Origin: Oscillospiraceae bacterium
Lineage (GTDB): Bacteria > Bacillota > Clostridia > Oscillospirales > Oscillospiraceae
Reading direction: 5' to 3'
Length of the DNA: 64,000 nt
NCBI GenBank assembly: GCA_015068455.1
Contig: SVKO01000008.1
Coordinates: 1-64,000, forward strand
Every line of letters starts with the position of its first letter. Position 1 is the stretch's first letter. Shown here piece by piece: positions 29,951 through 38,347 of the stretch. The notes beneath the pieces were generated by a model, which searched no databases, was not told the DNA's origin, and saw nothing but the letters and a program-made list of their open reading frames with translations. A program made the translations under genes and the position numbers.

Positions 29951-30037
29951 TGGTGCCGGTAGTGGGACTCGAACCCACACGGTATCGCTACCAACGGATT
30001 TTGAGTCCGTCACGTCTACCAATTCCATCATACCGGC
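29951..30037 (-). tRNA. tRNA-Leu (anticodon CAA)
   Basis: 87 nt including an encoded CCA. Acceptor stem GCCGGTA/TACCGGC, anticodon loop CTCAAAA giving CAA (reads UUG), a long class II variable arm and T-loop TTCGAGT. Promoter upstream and intrinsic terminator directly downstream make it a single-gene unit. Confidence 0.97.
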
Positions 30038-30106: not shown

Positions 30107-30751
30107 TCACCTTCTCAGATAATCGGAAGAAACCGGGAATTCAAAATAGGTATCCGGGTATGGCTCTTCTTTCAGGCAGAAGTGCCACCATTCGCACGGC
30201 AAGGGCGCAAATCCGCATCGCACCATGACCCGCTGCAGCAGCATCCGGTTCTCGTACTGCTCCTGCGTGATGCCCCGGTAGTCGGGATGGGATACCTCGC
30301 TGAACAGATCGAAGGGGCTGCCCATATCCAGCTCCTTGCCGCTTCGCATGTCCAGCAGGGTCAGATCCACGGCGCTGCCCCGGCTGTGGCTGGAGCGGCT
30401 GGCAATATATCCCTCGGTGAACAGCGCCTGCTTTTCCAGATCCGGGTAAAAATAAGGTTTCATACGGATATCCTGATCTTCTATGCCCCAAAGGACGAAA
30501 TGCCTGACCGCGCAGACGGGACGGTAGGCGTCAAAGATCTTCAGCCGATATCCCTGGACAAACAGCTCGCCGCTGGCGCGCTTCAGCGCCCGGGCGGCCT
30601 CCCTGGTCAAAAGGGCGCAGGGCTCCTCGTAGCCGTCGATGCGTTCGCCGATGAAATTGTAGGTGGAATAATAGCGGATCTCCTGGATGATGTGCGGCAC
30701 GGCCTCCGCCAGCAGCACAAAGCCGGAAGGATCGGACACCGACTTATTCAT
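30107..30751 (-). CDS. VanX-like D-alanyl-D-alanine dipeptidase (M15D)
   Basis: 214 residues, start behind AGGAGGAGG. Zinc metallopeptidase with all VanX catalytic residues visible: R77 in DAYRP, H122 and D129 in SSHSRGSAVDL, E187 and H190 in EWWHF. No signal peptide, so it should act in the cytoplasm on D-Ala-D-Ala, as VanX and the DdpX/VanX-like stress enzymes do. There are no vanH, vanA, vanR or vanS genes nearby, so a role in glycopeptide resistance is not supported; peptidoglycan-peptide recycling is more likely. Last gene of the long minus-strand cluster. Confidence 0.9.
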   Translation of the reverse strand: MNKSVSDPSGFVLLAEAVPHIIQEIRYYSTYNFIGERIDGYEEPCALLTREAARALKRASGELFVQGYRLKIFDAYRPVCAVRHFVLWGIEDQDIRMKPYFYPDLEKQALFTEGYIASRSSHSRGSAVDLTLLDMRSGKELDMGSPFDLFSEVSHPDYRGITQEQYENRMLLQRVMVRCGFAPLPCEWWHFCLKEEPYPDTYFEFPVSSDYLRR

Positions 30752-30767: not shown

Positions 30768-31643
30768 TCAGCCGTTTTGCGGGGTAATGTCGATCACGGT
30801 ATTTCCCTCCGCGTCTTTACGGATCGTCACAAGATAGTGATATTCGTTCTCCCCGTCGCGGATGGTCATGGGTGTGGAACCAAGGCGCGTGGAGCTGACG
30901 CGCACCATGCTGCTCTCCCCCGTCGATTCGACGGAAACCTGGGCGATCCCGGCATCCTCCACGGTCACGGAGGCAGACTCAGTGAGAACGGGATCGTCCG
31001 GCAGATACATCGTCCAGTTCACATCCACGGCCTTCGTCGTCAGCAGTATGAACGCAGCCGCCGCCAAAGCAGCCAGAAGACCGACCAGCTTCTGCCATAC
31101 GTTGGAGGTAAACAGATACACATAGAGCAGGATCTGCCCCAGGCAGAACAGGGCGGCGATCAGAAGCCGGGGAAAACAAAGCATGGTTTCGCGGGCTGTT
31201 TCAATGAAAACGGTGCCGAGAAATGCCAGCACCGGGGCCAGGATCAGCAGGCTCAGCCAGTTCTTTTTCGTAATATACCATCCGACAAAAGCCGCGGGAA
31301 AGGTCAAAAGCGTCAGGAAGAACCAGTAACTGTAGTACCCGAACAGGCTCCAGCCCATGGATGAAAACGGGACCTGAAACAGATATATCAGCGGCTGGCT
31401 GATGAGGAAAAAGACAAAGGTTTTCAGTGCGGACTCCAGAGGCGTTTTGCAGTTGGCCATAATGAGGATGGCTAAAAAGATCCAGGCCTCGAGGTATACG
31501 CCCATCCGATGAAATGACGTACCCTCAAAAAACGGAAAAATCAAAAATACAGCGGTCAGCGCGGCGGCGCCAACGGCATAGGCAATCAACCGCGGCCACG
31601 TGAAGCGGAGCCCGCCATATAGCTTTTGAATCAGTTTCTTCAT
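30768..31643 (-). CDS. Integral membrane protein of unknown function with extracytoplasmic C-domain
   Basis: 291 residues, no family recognised. About seven hydrophobic segments cover residues 18-205 (for example AVGAAALTAVFLIFPFF, WIFLAILIMA, ILLYVYLFT). From about 210 to the end the protein is soluble and beta-rich (SASVTVEDAGIAQVSVEST). The start has a normal ribosome site. Gaps of 14-16 bp to both neighbours indicate cotranscription with the MATE fusion and the VanX-like gene. Confidence 0.7.
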   Translation of the reverse strand: MKKLIQKLYGGLRFTWPRLIAYAVGAAALTAVFLIFPFFEGTSFHRMGVYLEAWIFLAILIMANCKTPLESALKTFVFFLISQPLIYLFQVPFSSMGWSLFGYYSYWFFLTLLTFPAAFVGWYITKKNWLSLLILAPVLAFLGTVFIETARETMLCFPRLLIAALFCLGQILLYVYLFTSNVWQKLVGLLAALAAAAFILLTTKAVDVNWTMYLPDDPVLTESASVTVEDAGIAQVSVESTGESSMVRVSSTRLGSTPMTIRDGENEYHYLVTIRKDAEGNTVIDITPQNG

Positions 31644-31657
31644 ATCATGTCCTTTAC

Positions 31658-33427
31658 TTAAATCCGGATCGTCAGTACGTTGAGACCGAGAATGTTCTGA
31701 TACTGCACATCTCTGGCCATTCCAAGGATCATTCGGATGCCGATGTTTTTCGCCGGATCGTCGCCGTTGAAGCGGCGCAGCCGTTCCGCCGGATCAAAGG
31801 GCACGCAGTCATCCTTGATGCGCAGGATGACGTCGTCATCCTTGCGAACCACACGCACATCGACCGTGTGCTTTTTTTTGTCCTTAGTAAACCCGTGATC
31901 CACGATATTGCCCGCCATTTCCTCCATGGAAAGGCCGGCGAGGTATGCACGGCGCTTGTCTATGCCCCGGGCGGCACAGAAGTTCTGGACCTGCTCGGCA
32001 ACGCTGACCACATCGTCCATGCTGCGCAGGCTCAGATCCATCCGCGCGTTGTCCGGCGCGCCGAAATCGTCCGGTATCACCATCAGTTCGTCCATATTGC
32101 GGGGCAGACGCCTCTTTTTCATCCAGGCATAGCCGATGATCACCAGCGTGGTCACCACGCCGTTGAGCACATTGGCGATGTACACACTGTTCATGCCGAT
32201 CGCGCGGATCAGCAGGGCCGTGAAGCCCGCCACGCACACCACGCCGTCGAGCAGAGCCAGCACATGCACCAACCCCTGCTTTCCGGACGCCTGTGCATAA
32301 CAGGTGAAATGCATACAGATGATGCTCAGCGGCATGCACAGCGGCAGGATCCGGAGGCCCCAGACCGTCATGGCATAGACGGGATCGCCGGGATCACGGT
32401 AGAAAATCCGCGTCAGTGGTACGGCACAGGCAATGATTGCAGCGCAGATAACCGCCATCAGCGGCAGGAAGCGCCTGAACATTACGCGCATGACGTCCGT
32501 CAGCGTCTGCCGGTCCTCCTCGCCGATGGAAACGCTGATCAGCATACGCGACACCGCCAGCATGCCCATGGGTACCGCCCACACAATCCGAAGCAGGCTG
32601 TCCGAGGCGGCGAAGGCGGAGATCCCGACGGCGCCGACCACGATCTCGATCAGATTGTTGACGATGAGGCCGCGAACGGTCTGATAAACATTGCTGAGGG
32701 CGCCGGGGATGCCGATGCGGATTATTTCCCCGCTCTGCTTCCAGGAAATGTGCCGGTTGAACAGGCGCAAATGGGAGCGGCCGAAGAAATAGTAAGGAAT
32801 CTGCACAAGCAGATATACCCACAGGCCCAGGGAGGACGCCAGCGCCAGGCCGAAGGCCTCCATATGCAGGACCTTGACGAACAGGAAATTGAGCAGCACA
32901 TTTGCAAGGATATAGGCCACGCTCGCGATCAGCGTCCGGGAGCCCTTGTTCTCCAGGGAGAGGAAGGAAGCAAAGGAATTGCCCAGCATCAGCGGCACAA
33001 ATCCGATGACCTGGCCGAGCAAATACCGATTGAAAATAGGGCGCACCTCGGGATCCCGCGTCAGGAATCCGGTGAGATCAAAGACCGAAAGCACCACGAA
33101 CAGGACGGTAAAGACGAGGGCGATCAGAACCGACAGCGCCAGATTCAGGGAAAAGACGTTCTGCAGCTTTTCCTGCTGATTTTGTCCCATGTATTTTCCG
33201 CACAGGATGACGGAACCGCCCACAAGGATGATGCTGATCGACGTAATAAGCATATTGATCGGCGCGTACAGGCCGACGGCGCTCATGGCGGCGACGCCGA
33301 TGTAATTGCTGGCAAAAAAACTCGAAACGATGCCGTTGACTGCGCTGATCGCAGCCAGCAGGATCTGGATCGGAAGCAGCCGAAACAGCAGCTTGGTTAC
33401 CATTTTTGCATTGGCGTTCTGGTTCAT
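31658..33427 (-). CDS. MATE-family transporter fused to an RsbW-like HATPase domain
   Basis: 589 residues. Residues about 10-440 are a MATE/polysaccharide-exporter-type transporter with about 12 membrane helices (starts KLLFRLLPIQILLAAISAVNG). Residues about 460-589 are a GHKL/HATPase_c domain of the anti-sigma-kinase type: N-box at 502-507 (EEMAGN), G1-like DDCVPFDP at 539-546 with Cys in place of the usual Gly, and NIGIRM at 561-566. The two halves are joined by a short basic linker (KKRRLPRN). The ATPase tail should lie in the cytoplasm and could bind or phosphorylate a STAS protein such as the one at 37970-38269. Substrate unknown. Domain calls are firm; the signalling link is inference. 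Confidence 0.88.
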   Translation of the reverse strand: MNQNANAKMVTKLLFRLLPIQILLAAISAVNGIVSSFFASNYIGVAAMSAVGLYAPINMLITSISIILVGGSVILCGKYMGQNQQEKLQNVFSLNLALSVLIALVFTVLFVVLSVFDLTGFLTRDPEVRPIFNRYLLGQVIGFVPLMLGNSFASFLSLENKGSRTLIASVAYILANVLLNFLFVKVLHMEAFGLALASSLGLWVYLLVQIPYYFFGRSHLRLFNRHISWKQSGEIIRIGIPGALSNVYQTVRGLIVNNLIEIVVGAVGISAFAASDSLLRIVWAVPMGMLAVSRMLISVSIGEEDRQTLTDVMRVMFRRFLPLMAVICAAIIACAVPLTRIFYRDPGDPVYAMTVWGLRILPLCMPLSIICMHFTCYAQASGKQGLVHVLALLDGVVCVAGFTALLIRAIGMNSVYIANVLNGVVTTLVIIGYAWMKKRRLPRNMDELMVIPDDFGAPDNARMDLSLRSMDDVVSVAEQVQNFCAARGIDKRRAYLAGLSMEEMAGNIVDHGFTKDKKKHTVDVRVVRKDDDVILRIKDDCVPFDPAERLRRFNGDDPAKNIGIRMILGMARDVQYQNILGLNVLTIRI

Positions 33428-33443: not shown

Positions 33444-34226
33444 TCAATCGATCAGGCCGAAATGGCGCAGAGCCTTTTCTATGCCGTCATTGTCGATGGT
33501 GTCCGTCACATAATCCGCCGCAGCCTTGACAAGGTCAGATGAATTGCCCATGGCCACGCCGATGCCGGCAAACTTGAGCATGTCGATATCGTTCTCCCCG
33601 TCGCCGAAGGCCATGATCTCGCTGCGATCCAGGCCATGCTCCTCCAGGTATCTCCGGATGCCGGCGGATTTTCCCCCGTCCTTGGGTATGATGTCGATGC
33701 CGGTGTCGTTCCAGCTGATAACGGCGCACTCGTCCAGCAGTTCGTCCAGGAGCTTCTTCTGATGCTCCGGTACAAAGGCCAGGATCTGATAGACCTTCTC
33801 GCCGCCGTAGATGCCCAAAGCCGGCACCGTCCCCTTGGTTTGCTCCTGGGTGCGCACAACCGTTTCGTCTATATAGTTTATATAGCGTCCGTTCTCGCCG
33901 ATCAGTGCGAAGGGAATGCGCTTGGCCTGAAAAATGTGGGCAAGGACCTCCATCTCTCCGCGGTCAATGGGCGTGCCTGCGTACGCGTGACGATTGGCGT
34001 CGAGGATGAGATTCCCGTTGAGCGTCAGATAGCCGTCAAAGGGAATATCGCTCACCGGGAGCAGGGAAAATTCCGTCATATGACGGCCTGTGGCAACGAT
34101 GGTTTTGATGCCTCCGGCGCGCAGCGCATCCAGGGCGCGGCGGGTGCTCTCCGGCACGTCGCCCCGGCTGTGGGAGAGCAAGGTGCCGTCCACATCAAAA
34201 AAGATCGCCTTGATTCGATCGTTCAT
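33444..34226 (-). CDS. Cof-type HAD-superfamily phosphatase
   Basis: 260 residues. Motif I FFDVDGTLL gives the nucleophile D11 and acid D13; motif II is in KTIVATGR; motif IV is FGDGENDIDML near residue 207. A large C2 cap lies in between. Members dephosphorylate sugar phosphates, FMN or PLP; the substrate cannot be told from sequence. Starts behind AAAGGAAG, 17 bp from the MATE fusion. Confidence 0.9.
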   Translation of the reverse strand: MNDRIKAIFFDVDGTLLSHSRGDVPESTRRALDALRAGGIKTIVATGRHMTEFSLLPVSDIPFDGYLTLNGNLILDANRHAYAGTPIDRGEMEVLAHIFQAKRIPFALIGENGRYINYIDETVVRTQEQTKGTVPALGIYGGEKVYQILAFVPEHQKKLLDELLDECAVISWNDTGIDIIPKDGGKSAGIRRYLEEHGLDRSEIMAFGDGENDIDMLKFAGIGVAMGNSSDLVKAAADYVTDTIDNDGIEKALRHFGLID

Positions 34227-34258: not shown

Positions 34259-35461
34259 TCATCGATAGGACAGCAGCGTCAAAATCACATAGCTCAGGAT
34301 CAGGCCGCCGATGATCAGCGCCTGCTTCCCCCGATGGGCGGTCAGCAGACCCACAAATTCCCGCACCGCCGCGTTCGGCCAGAAATACCATTTTGTCCTG
34401 GCGCCCATACCCGCCGCCCGCATTTTCACACGGCGCGCGAACAGGCCGCTGCGGAACACATGATAATTGGTGGTGGCAAAGGCGATTTTCCCGTCGGGAT
34501 CGATCTGCAGAATCTTTTCCTTTGAAAATTTCATGTTTTCAAAGGTGTCGGTGGACTGATCCTCCTCGACGATCCGGGATGCCGGTACGCCGCGCTCCGT
34601 CAGATAACGCTTCATGGCGGCGCTCTCCGAAATGGCCTCGTCCGGGCCCTGCCCGCCGGAGGCGATGAAGGTCAGCTCCTTTCCGGTTTGGGCTTTCTGC
34701 TTCTGATAAAAGTCCAGCGCTCTGTCGAGCCTGCCCTTGAGCAGCGGCGTCGGTGTGCCGTCCGGGCGCAGTCCGCAGCCGAGAACGATGAGAAAATCCC
34801 TGTTCGGCTCCGGCTCATACCGGGCGGCAATGGCGTCGGCGACCATGGCGCCGAGGAGCATGCATTCAAAATAGAGATAAACGGCGGCAAATATGTTGGT
34901 AAAAAGATCATGGATCATGACCTCCCGCTCACTGCCGAAGGTGTAGAAGTCGTACCGCTGCAGGAAGACCACGCCCCCTACCAGAAGGAAGGACAGCACG
35001 ATCCCCAGCAGATTCACCACCCGCAGCCCCTCGTGCCGGATCAGCGACAGATTGGAAATGCACAGCGCCGCGGAGAATACCAGCAGAAACGGGGATGTGA
35101 TGATCATATAGTTTTTCGCAGACCGCAGAAGGACATGCGTGATCATGAGCGAAGTATAGACCTCCGGCTCCAGCGCAGTATGTACCGTCAGCACAAGATA
35201 GGCGACCATGACATAGAACGCGAACAGCGCAAACCCGAAATAGAAAATCGTATTATAAGAATACGGATTGTAACGGAGCTGCTCCCGGAACGCCCAGAGC
35301 AGAGTCAGGATCACGCACAGTGCATAGGCCGCCATCACGCCGCAGATCGCCGCATTCAATCCCCTGCGCGCAAGGATCCCGACAGCGATCCCCGCGGCGG
35401 CAGTGAAAAACAGAAGCACGCGGATTCTGGGTTTCGTGTCCCTCGTATCAAATCGAACCAT
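34259..35461 (-). CDS. Multi-pass membrane protein with DUF218 (YdcF/SanA-like) domain
   Basis: 400 residues from ATG 35461; an ATG at 35494 is an alternative start that overlaps the PHP gene further. Six hydrophobic segments cover residues 10-215, followed by the DUF218 domain (about 222-365), recognisable by FLIVLGCGLRPDG, SGGQGPDE and TNYHVFRS. One more membrane helix closes the protein. DUF218 proteins are linked to envelope polymer and undecaprenyl metabolism; precise chemistry unknown. Its start overlaps the PHP stop by 14 bp. Confidence 0.82.
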   Translation of the reverse strand: MVRFDTRDTKPRIRVLLFFTAAAGIAVGILARRGLNAAICGVMAAYALCVILTLLWAFREQLRYNPYSYNTIFYFGFALFAFYVMVAYLVLTVHTALEPEVYTSLMITHVLLRSAKNYMIITSPFLLVFSAALCISNLSLIRHEGLRVVNLLGIVLSFLLVGGVVFLQRYDFYTFGSEREVMIHDLFTNIFAAVYLYFECMLLGAMVADAIAARYEPEPNRDFLIVLGCGLRPDGTPTPLLKGRLDRALDFYQKQKAQTGKELTFIASGGQGPDEAISESAAMKRYLTERGVPASRIVEEDQSTDTFENMKFSKEKILQIDPDGKIAFATTNYHVFRSGLFARRVKMRAAGMGARTKWYFWPNAAVREFVGLLTAHRGKQALIIGGLILSYVILTLLSYR

Positions 35462-36323
35462 GCGCACTGTTTCCGATCTCCTCAAAAAAGGCATTCAAGA
35501 TCCGGGCATTCTCCCGATCCAGCCCGGTATCGCCCAACGCAATCAGCTTGTTCGTTCCGTGGTAATCGCTGCCTGCCGTGACGCACAGGGAGAAGCGTTC
35601 GGCCAGAGAGAGCACCTGTGCGCGGAGCTTCGAGGAAAATCCGGAATAGTAGGCTTCCAGGCCGCGCAGGCCGAAATCCATCAGCCGCCGGACTCGCGAC
35701 TCCAGCGCCGCGCCGAGAATCAGTTCGTCGCCGCTGCCGTAACACGGATGTGCCAGCACGGGAACACCCCCGGATGCCAGGATGCCGCGGATGGCCTCCT
35801 CCGGGCGTACGTATTCGTTGCGGAAATGCATCTGGTCCATGTAATCCTTGATGGCCTCATCCATGGAACGGGCATATCCGTATTTCATCATGAGATTGCC
35901 GATGTGCGGCTTGCCGGGATTATCCCGCGCAAGCAGCGCCCGGATCTCCTCCCTCGGAAAGTCGAAGCCGAATCTCTCTTTCAGAAAGTCCAGGCGAAGC
36001 CGGACCTTATTCATACGGAAATTGTGGCCCTTCTCCACGACGCGGCAAATGGGCTCCGCCTCCGGATCAAAGCCATAGCCGAGGATGTGGCACTTCCCTT
36101 CTTCGTCCTTGCACGAAAACTCCACGCCGGTCAGAAAGGCGGGATCATCCGGCGTCAGAAGCGCTTGAATGATGCGGCAGCCCTTCACCGCGTCGTGATC
36201 CGTTACGGAAAACAGGGCAAGTCCCGCGCTCCTGACTTTGTCCAGGATCCCCTCGGGCGAATCTGTGCCGTCGGAAACAGTGGTATGCATATGCAGGTCG
36301 ATCCTGCCGGTAAGGCTCGTCAT
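35448..36323 (-). CDS. PHP-domain metal-dependent phosphoesterase
   Basis: 291 residues. PHP metal-binding motifs are clear: DLHMHTTVSDG (H11, H13) and VTDHDAVKG. Relatives such as YciV/RNase AM and cyclic 3',5'-adenosine bisphosphate phosphodiesterases cleave small phosphoesters or short RNAs. No polymerase domain. Downstream of the STAS-kinase gene by 22 bp and overlapping the next gene, so expressed with the signalling cluster. Confidence 0.88.
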   Translation of the reverse strand: MTSLTGRIDLHMHTTVSDGTDSPEGILDKVRSAGLALFSVTDHDAVKGCRIIQALLTPDDPAFLTGVEFSCKDEEGKCHILGYGFDPEAEPICRVVEKGHNFRMNKVRLRLDFLKERFGFDFPREEIRALLARDNPGKPHIGNLMMKYGYARSMDEAIKDYMDQMHFRNEYVRPEEAIRGILASGGVPVLAHPCYGSGDELILGAALESRVRRLMDFGLRGLEAYYSGFSSKLRAQVLSLAERFSLCVTAGSDYHGTNKLIALGDTGLDRENARILNAFFEEIGNSAHGSI

Positions 36324-36345: not shown

Positions 36346-37899
36346 TTACAGTTTCTTTTTCAGCTTCAGAATGTTCTGCCCATCCTTATACTCATAGGAA
36401 ATATCGTCCATGATCTTTTTGGTCATGAAAATCCCCAGTCCGCCGATTTCCCGCTCGGCTGCCGAGAGGGTCACATCGGGGTCCTGTTTGGTCATGGGAT
36501 CATAGGGTACACCGTTGTCCACAAACGTGATCGTGACAGTGACCGGATCCTCAGAAACCTCAACGCGGACCGTCGCATTTCCCCTTCCGGGGGCATAGGC
36601 ATAGTTGGCAATGTTTACGAAAATCTCCTCCACTGCCACGCCGATCTGCATTTTCGCTTTCATGGGGCAGTCGGCTGCTTCAAGATGCTCTTCCACGAAG
36701 CTCTGAACCTCCGCCAGATTCTCCAAAACAGCCTCCAGCACCAGTTCGTTTGCGCTGAACAGCAGCGTATCGTACTGCTCCAGCAGATCCAGGAGCCGCT
36801 GCTTCCAGAAATCGATCTCCGCCCGGCCGGCCTCGGTCTCCAGTCCGCCACGGCGGATGGAGCGGCGGATCATGCGGGTATACCCGATGATGCGGGCTTT
36901 GTCCTCCACCTCCCGGATCTTGCGCTCATTTTGCGTCCCCAGATAGGCAGAAAGAGACTTTCTCCAGAATGTGCTGCCGGTTTCAAAATCGAAGCCCTGG
37001 AACTTTATAATGGTCTCGTGGTCATACTCCGAGTAGCCCACAAAAGAGTTGAACATGGAAGCCAGCTCAAAAATCGGATGTCCCACCGCAAGGGTATCCA
37101 TGTCGATGAGCAGGACCTCGTCATTCTGCAGCATCACGTTCTTTGTATGGTAGTCGCCATGGATCATATAGTCGCTGTGGGGCACCGCATCCACCATGGC
37201 AACCAGCTTTTTTCCCAATTCCTCCGGCAGATAATCGCGCATGAACGCGGCCCAGCCGCGAACCGTCTGCTTCATATCCGGGAGCTTTCCCTCGGGCACC
37301 AGGGTGCCGTGGATCGTCTTGAGCAGATGCACATACTCCTTGACACACCAGTCCATCTTCTCCGGCTCGGTGGCCAGGATCCTGGAAAAGGAGCTTGCGT
37401 TGAGCAGCTCAAACACCGAGCCATAGCTGTCCCCGACTTTGACAACGTCATAGGAAATGGCCGTGGGAATGCCCAGGATCAGCGCCAGCTTGGCCACCTC
37501 GCGCTCGTGCTGTATATCCTCCAGCGCATCGGCGTTGATATAGACCTTGACCACGTTGTCCTGGTCGATGCGGTATATGGCGCCGTTGGCGCCGCGGCCG
37601 ATTTCCTCGCAGCCCTCCACGGATACGGTACGGTAAGCCTTTTCCACCGGCATCATTTCCGTGAATCCGGTCATATCAAGGATCTCATACACCTCGGAGC
37701 TGACGTCCCTGATCCGCACGTCAGGGTATGTCTTTTTGAGCCGCAAGATGACCCGCAGACCGGCGGAGGAAATATAATCCAGCTCCTTCGCATCCAGAAT
37801 CACGCAGGATGCGTCGCCGCTTTCCAGCTGCTTCAGGATCTCCTGTTCGATGCGGGCGGCATTGCCGGAATCAATGCGGCCTTTCAATTCTATTGTCAT
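36346..37899 (-). CDS. STAS - APH-like kinase - HATPase three-domain signalling protein
   Basis: 517 residues, start behind AAAGGAGC. Domain 1 (1-85) is a STAS anti-sigma-antagonist domain with DYISSAGLRVIL at 41-52; Ser45 matches the Ser phosphorylated in SpoIIAA. Domain 2 (about 95-380) is an aminoglycoside-phosphotransferase-like kinase: glycine loop GRGANGAIYR (101-110), Lys118, catalytic loop HGDYHTKN (247-254, D249, N254) and LIDMDT (metal Asp near 266-268). Domain 3 (about 395-517) is an RsbW-like HATPase: EEIFVN (424-429), FVDNGVPYDP (459-468), GGLGIFM (486-492). So one chain holds an antagonist, a small-molecule or protein kinase and an anti-sigma-type kinase. All catalytic residues look intact. 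The target is unknown and no sigma factor gene lies nearby. Confidence 0.9.
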   Translation of the reverse strand: MTIELKGRIDSGNAARIEQEILKQLESGDASCVILDAKELDYISSAGLRVILRLKKTYPDVRIRDVSSEVYEILDMTGFTEMMPVEKAYRTVSVEGCEEIGRGANGAIYRIDQDNVVKVYINADALEDIQHEREVAKLALILGIPTAISYDVVKVGDSYGSVFELLNASSFSRILATEPEKMDWCVKEYVHLLKTIHGTLVPEGKLPDMKQTVRGWAAFMRDYLPEELGKKLVAMVDAVPHSDYMIHGDYHTKNVMLQNDEVLLIDMDTLAVGHPIFELASMFNSFVGYSEYDHETIIKFQGFDFETGSTFWRKSLSAYLGTQNERKIREVEDKARIIGYTRMIRRSIRRGGLETEAGRAEIDFWKQRLLDLLEQYDTLLFSANELVLEAVLENLAEVQSFVEEHLEAADCPMKAKMQIGVAVEEIFVNIANYAYAPGRGNATVRVEVSEDPVTVTITFVDNGVPYDPMTKQDPDVTLSAAEREIGGLGIFMTKKIMDDISYEYKDGQNILKLKKKL

Positions 37900-37969: not shown

Positions 37970-38269
37970 TTATTCGATGGTCAGGATTTCCGAAAAGCCC
38001 GTAACGTCGAAAATCTCCATGATGGTTTCGTTGACATTGCAGATCTTCATTTTCCCCTGTTTTGTCATTGCCTTCTGGGCCGCAAGCAGCACCCGCAGGC
38101 CGGCGGAGGAGATGTAGTCCAGCTGCGCAAAATCCAGCGTCAGCTCGCTCACACCGTCGAGCGACTGCCGAAGCGCCTGCTCGAACTCCGGCGCAGTGAT
38201 GGTATCCATCCGGCCCGTCAGGGCAAAATCAGCCTTTCCGTTTTCAATCGTTTTATTGATCGACAGCAT
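37970..38269 (-). CDS. STAS-domain protein (anti-sigma factor antagonist type)
   Basis: 99 residues from ATG 38269. An ATG two codons earlier (38275) lies too close to GGGAGG, so the second is preferred. A single STAS domain with LDYISSAGLRVLL; the likely phosphorylatable Ser is S55. It is closely similar in this motif to the STAS part of the next protein, suggesting duplication. It should be the soluble partner of one or both HATPase domains in this cluster (inference). Confidence 0.9.
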   Translation of the reverse strand: MLSINKTIENGKADFALTGRMDTITAPEFEQALRQSLDGVSELTLDFAQLDYISSAGLRVLLAAQKAMTKQGKMKICNVNETIMEIFDVTGFSEILTIE

Positions 38270-38347
38270 ATTCATTACCTCCCTGTTATTTCAGCGCAGT
38301 ATTTGCGCATCGTGTATTTCCGTATCCGGGAATCCGCGCCAGTCTTT

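Follow-up and report, generated by a model that had tools for sequence, protein, structure and literature searches.

A MATE transporter with an RsbW/SpoIIAB-type HATPase tail in partner-switch gene clusters of gut and rumen bacteria

A gene encoding a MATE transporter with a HATPase domain of the RsbW/SpoIIAB type at its C terminus was analyzed in a 64,000-nucleotide stretch of an Oscillospiraceae contig (the window). The fusion protein is read here as the output, at the membrane, of a phospho-module of the partner-switching kind, at a probability of roughly 0.55. On the best reading of the tail, it would serve as a docking or output domain for STAS proteins and not as the main kinase. The evidence was drawn from the fused open reading frame and its conservation, structural models of both domains, and the gene clusters in which the fusion occurs. 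No description of a MATE-HATPase fusion was found in the open literature searched. The parts are individually known; the same literature yielded no account of an anti-sigma-type domain on a transporter within a partner-switch cassette.

The fusion gene and its family

The fusion gene occupies 31658..33427 on the minus strand, with its ATG at 33427, its stop codon ending at 31658 and 589 codons in an unbroken frame. A ribosome-site-like stretch, GGGAGG, is located 5' of the ATG. The MATE part spans approximately residues 3-438 and contains 12 transmembrane helices, and the HATPase part spans approximately residues 459-589. The protein was matched to the Pfam family MatE with an E value of 1e-23, and its tail to HATPase_c_2 at residues 472-588 with an E value of 1.6e-11, above the Pfam cut-off. 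An AlphaFold model generated with 54 homologues (pLDDT 86) consisted of 12 long transmembrane helices followed by a separate alpha/beta domain. The initial annotation had described a MATE transporter fused to an RsbW-type HATPase, and the single uninterrupted reading frame with its two Pfam matches bears this out. A chimera of two proteins created by a frame error was ruled out because the same fused frame recurs in approximately 100 homologues, comprising the 77 other aligned proteins and 20 genes of a class-wide sample.

A single scan of genome contigs yielded 80 loci, and the resulting alignment held 78 proteins, including the window protein and a paralogue from its own genome. The sources of the aligned homologues were Clostridia of the rumen and gut, Lachnospiraceae, Oscillospiraceae and Erysipelotrichaceae; a few contigs carried the labels Coriobacteriaceae, Olsenella or Spirochaetaceae. 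In two relatives (L043 and L075) the gene was broken up by what look like assembly frame errors. Mean pairwise identity in the main set was 60% for the HATPase and 52% for the transporter. The paralogue is a second fusion on contig C5 (L004 / L136:6965-8842), ∼25% identical to the window protein; it has the G1 sequence RDDCGAFDP, keeps the Asp residues of TM1 and TM5 and has no STAS or PP2C gene nearby.

The class-wide, unselected sample of 291 genomes was searched with the tail only. Outside the window's own genome 20 genes in 16 genomes were verified as MATE fusions, a denominator from which two non-MATE matches are excluded. These two were the weakest matches of the search, one a PP2C-HATPase protein (L113) and the other histidine-kinase-like (L114). 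All strong tail matches were MATE fusions, and an occurrence of this HATPase_c_2 domain on other transporter types was rejected on that basis.

The transporter domain

PfMATE was the best match of the membrane part both by structure and by sequence, the AlphaFold model giving a TM-score of 0.85 by target length against 6fhz. PfMATE and DinF-BH, a DinF-type MATE, were its best structure and sequence matches, and the solved chains of these proteins carry no HATPase tail. Unlike PfMATE, the window clade lacks the N-lobe Asp pair (D41 and D184), the aligned residues being Ser35 in TM1 and Asn180 in TM5, and has Asp394 in TM11; this combination was present in 60 of the 78 relatives. Arg252, Arg294 and Arg359 are conserved in predicted helices 7, 8 and 10. 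The Asp pair of PfMATE is not needed by all MATE proteins and bears on ion coupling, not on membership of the fold. The residues hint that the predicted transporter has a different ion coupling, and its substrate is perhaps anionic.

The HATPase domain

MATE structures took up the Foldseek match list of the complete protein, and the tail was modelled and searched alone. The isolated model (pLDDT 91) matched UsfX-RsfB (8ih8, Z 15.9), RsbW-RsbV (6m37, Z 15.5) and SpoIIAB-SpoIIAA (1th8, Z 15.3), with SiaB at Z 12.7, whereas histidine kinases reached a Z of only ∼8.6. Sequence comparison alone linked the tail to RsbW weakly (E 0.006); the tail is therefore, as modelled, a divergent member of the RsbW/SpoIIAB fold class.

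The N-box (E502-E503-M-A-G-N507), the G1-like motif KDDC541VPFDP (D539-D540-C541) and the G2-like motif N561IGIRM566 were found exactly where they had been annotated. Unlike RsbW and SpoIIAB, the tail has DDC in G1, with C541 in place of the Gly, and lacks the Gly-rich G2 lid, N561-I-G563 standing in place of G-x-G in a shortened lid without Gly-Gly. Glu503 and Asn507 of the N-box and Asp539 of G1, the adenine contact, are invariant across the 78 aligned proteins. Cys541 is present in 77 of them, the paralogue included. Since it is near-invariant in two clades, with Asp539, Glu503 and Asn507 kept, Cys541 is judged from the alignment to be a lineage hallmark and not damage. The initial annotation was thus correct that the G1 glycine is replaced, but the replacement does not behave as a lesion. 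A degenerate gene or a random Cys substitution was ruled out by the conservation of Cys541 and by the tail being more conserved than the pump.

The same near-invariance would suit Cys541 acting as a redox or electrophile sensor, modification of the thiol at the nucleotide site switching the tail and with it the pump. In other fusion clades this position is taken by Gly (L104, L106-L108, L117 and L119) or Ser (L109 and L118), redox signalling is not indicated by anything in the gene clusters, and this explanation was given hardly any weight. The clade with the canonical G1 glycine, DDGIPFDP (L106, L107, L108 and L117), belongs to the fusions that have no STAS or PP2C neighbour, and may have a different mode of use.

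The N-box Asn is lost in four distant members (L105, L110, L111 and L112) and the G1 Asp is also lost in three of these (L110, L111 and L112), which speaks against a need for catalysis throughout the fusion family. The STAS-contact residue R20 of SpoIIAB was seen neither in the MATE tail nor in the canonical HATPases of the clusters, in an alignment read by eye.

The apparent operon in the window

The fusion gene belongs to a minus-strand run that encodes, in 5' to 3' order, a STAS protein, a STAS-APH-HATPase protein, a PHP protein, a DUF218 protein, a HAD protein, the MATE-HATPase fusion, a membrane protein and an M15 peptidase. The genes overlap or are separated by gaps of 14-70 bases, and a terminator-like stem is located at the end of this apparent operon. 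A promoter scan of the operon gave 12 matches against 7.4 expected, barely above chance.

The first gene (37970..38275, minus strand) encodes a stand-alone STAS protein of 101 residues with the phospho-Ser motif YISSAGL. A STAS gene had been annotated at 37970-38269; the gene is present, but its open reading frame starts at 38275, and 38269 is the next in-frame ATG. The second gene (36346..37899, minus strand) encodes a 517-residue triple fusion of a STAS domain, an APH-type kinase domain and a canonical HATPase_c_2 domain with an intact lid, REIGGLGIFM. From its sequence this protein is the best candidate for both the STAS kinase and a second effector. A small-molecule-kinase-like domain is thus placed between two partner-switch halves, its nearest model being TIGR02172, below the cut-off. 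The arrangement is widely conserved in the fusion clusters, at times as separate STAS-APH and HATPase genes.

The remaining genes are all on the minus strand. A PHP-domain phosphoesterase resembling RNase AM / 3',5'-bisphosphate phosphatase (35448..36323) and a membrane protein with a DUF218 domain of the ElyC/SanA type (34259..35494) are recurrent cluster members, and a Cof-type HAD-IIB phosphatase (33444..34226) is an occasional one. An uncharacterised membrane protein (30768..31643), 14 bp past the fusion gene, had no Pfam or NCBIfam match and has a relative in locus L017. The M15 gene (30107..30751) encodes a VanX-type D-Ala-D-Ala dipeptidase-like protein, again a recurrent member, and the terminator-like stem (30128-30101) lies at its end. 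A tRNA-Leu (caa) gene is located just downstream of the stem (29951-30037, minus strand).

No PP2C gene was found in the window operon. The window's own genome encodes two RsbU-type PP2C proteins (L089 and L090, at loci C7 and C1) with long N-terminal parts, one of them with a beta-propeller sensor. In L089 (C7), a 1152-residue open frame, the PP2C domain is preceded by a sensor part made of a beta-propeller (Reg_prop) and Y_Y_Y, a layout resembling that of hybrid two-component sensors. A stand-alone HATPase_c_2 protein with a GAGMG lid, similar to the kinase class, is encoded at C4:163932-164285 (L005). Of the three STAS matches found in this genome, two fall in the window operon and the third in the SpoIIAB/SigF locus.

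There were 18 matches to sigma-70 region 2 in the genome, and the ten that were named comprised two RpoD-like proteins, SigE, a SigK-like protein, SigG, SigF and ECF types. No SigB equivalog was found among these ten, and the window STAS proteins are therefore without an obvious sigma target. Their output would most naturally be the fusion. A conventional anti-sigma system, with a sigma factor tethered to the membrane by the fused HATPase, would agree with the fold of the tail, which is that of anti-sigma factors, and with the ECF sigma factors of the genome. Such a system was considered very improbable given the lack of a SigB equivalog among the ten named sigma proteins and of a sigma factor gene among those of the window operon.

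Gene clusters in relatives and same-genome controls

The neighbourhoods of the relatives contain shuffled subsets of the window operon genes on the same strand, with a PP2C phosphatase of the SpoIIE/RsbU type as an extra cluster gene that is fused to a canonical HATPase in L022, L026 and L029. A complete partner switch, made up of STAS, PP2C, canonical HATPase and MATE-HATPase genes, was present in six loci (L120, L121, L122, L123, L128 and L129). The fusion gene was directly paired with a STAS gene in L013, L028, L044, L052 and L130, with a STAS-APH gene in L076 and L126, and with a PP2C gene in L018, L020, L038, L124, L125 and L127. An SS-[AG]-G serine motif was present in 52 of 52 STAS matches near the relatives and in both STAS domains of the window; the serine of this motif is phosphorylated in this class of STAS proteins (PMC10120452).

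In the class-wide sample a STAS and/or RsbU-type PP2C gene was found within 7 kb of 13 of the 20 fusion genes, compared with 7 of the 109 best-scoring ordinary MATE genes of the same 16 genomes (Fisher p 1.7e-8), and both were found within 7 kb of 6 fusions and of none of these 109. Proximity to STAS genes as a general property of MATE genes was ruled out by this control. RsbU-type PP2C proteins (E below 1e-40) were encoded in 16 of 16 genomes with the fusion and in 2 of 16 listed genomes without it, groups which are not phylogenetically matched and in which related genomes are not fully independent. The same fusion with a nearby STAS gene occurs in the clusters of many relatives. The link to a STAS switch that the initial annotation had suggested holds as an association of gene clusters, seen in their conservation, in the excess over ordinary MATE genes and in the co-occurrence with PP2C across genomes.

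Neither a STAS nor a PP2C gene was near the other 7 of the 20 fusion genes, although both occur elsewhere in each of the 16 genomes. These 7 genes, the C5 paralogue with no such neighbours and the lack of a PP2C gene in the window operon count against the favored reading. Fusions of this kind, together with the nucleotide-contact residues kept in the window clade, would fit a tail that senses ATP/ADP or the energy state and gates the pump by itself, the STAS neighbours being incidental. Incidental neighbours are argued against by the strong STAS/PP2C excess over ordinary MATE genes and by members deficient in the N-box or G1 that persist beside STAS genes (L120, L122 and L123). Gating by energy state alone was accordingly judged improbable.

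When the HATPases of one cluster were aligned, the stand-alone and STAS-APH-fused domains retained the N-box and had GGLG at the end of a long lid. In the MATE-fused domains the lid was shortened, and Gly-Gly was absent from it in most cases. In the MATE-fused HATPases of L120 and L123 the N-box and G1 residues were also lost. This division suggests phosphorylation of STAS by the canonical domain and a mainly docking role for the tail. The window clade keeps Glu503, Asn507 and Asp539, residues of the catalytic type, which counts against a tail used for docking only.

These residues, invariant in the window clade, could also belong to an active STAS kinase with the transporter as its sensor, a kinase whose activity would change as substrate binds or flows and would set the phosphorylation of STAS for a downstream target; this corresponds to the transporter that reports to a STAS switch in the initial annotation. 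Several minimal clusters (such as L013 and L130), consisting of STAS and the fusion with no other HATPase nearby, point the same way. Set against this are the Gly-to-Cys change in G1, the lost Gly-Gly lid, the canonical HATPase in many of the same clusters, and the loss of the N-box Asn or G1 Asp in some members; an active-kinase tail is considered unlikely. Of the anti-sigma-kinase likeness initially annotated, the fold is retained, as matched to RsbW and SpoIIAB, and the kinase role probably is not, the canonical second HATPase of the same clusters being the better kinase candidate.

Proposed mechanism

In the favored reading, with the fusion as a membrane output, a canonical HATPase kinase would phosphorylate the STAS protein, a role that would fall in the window to the C-terminal domain of STAS-APH-HATPase, and an RsbU-type PP2C, here encoded at C7 and C1, would dephosphorylate it once its sensor parts were triggered. 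In one phosphorylation state the STAS protein would dock on the divergent HATPase tail, and the activity of the transporter would be altered or a partner recruited. By analogy with SiaC-SiaD the unphosphorylated form is the likelier one to dock. The tail would be mainly a docking domain; it may bind nucleotide, but the main kinase would lie elsewhere. In proteins that join STAS to an APH-type kinase, this docking contact could bring the kinase to the transporter. A more specific proposal is held tentatively, at somewhat less than even odds: that STAS docks on a degenerate anti-sigma-type HATPase of the MATE pump, that a STAS-linked small-molecule kinase docks there too in many genomes, and that modification and export are so coupled with no sigma factor involved.

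Comparison with known systems and significance

Most of what is known of RsbV/RsbW-type partner switches concerns the control of sigma factors, and a few have enzymes as outputs. As in RsbU-RsbV-RsbW and SpoIIE-SpoIIAA-SpoIIAB, a PP2C, a phospho-Ser STAS protein and a HATPase are encoded in one gene cluster, and the MATE tail has the RsbW/SpoIIAB fold; unlike those systems, a second, divergent HATPase is carried on a transporter and the window operon has no sigma gene. The best precedent for direct action of a STAS protein on an effector is, by analogy, SiaABCD of Pseudomonas aeruginosa, in which the unphosphorylated STAS-like protein activates the effector SiaD directly and does not act on transcription (PMC8457831). 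The effector there, a diguanylate cyclase, has a stalk of its own, whereas here it would be a transporter with a HATPase tail. SypA/SypE of Vibrio fischeri combines STAS, a HATPase kinase and a PP2C with a biofilm output, STAS being the more downstream part (PMC10120452); in contrast to the present clusters, its kinase and phosphatase are one protein and no transporter is included. In SLC26/SulP proteins a membrane transporter is fused to the STAS half of the STAS/HATPase pair (PMC8256260). The present protein is likewise a transporter fused to one half of the pair, but here to the HATPase half, and HATPase on MATE thus mirrors STAS on SulP/SLC26 transporters.

If the favored reading is true, partner-switch signalling would be extended to the direct control of membrane transport, in a form widespread in gut and rumen bacteria. 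A concrete function would be given to many genes now annotated merely as MATE efflux transporters, and some of the proteins called multidrug MATE transporters in gut bacteria may instead transport envelope components or metabolites under regulation and differ in their ion coupling.
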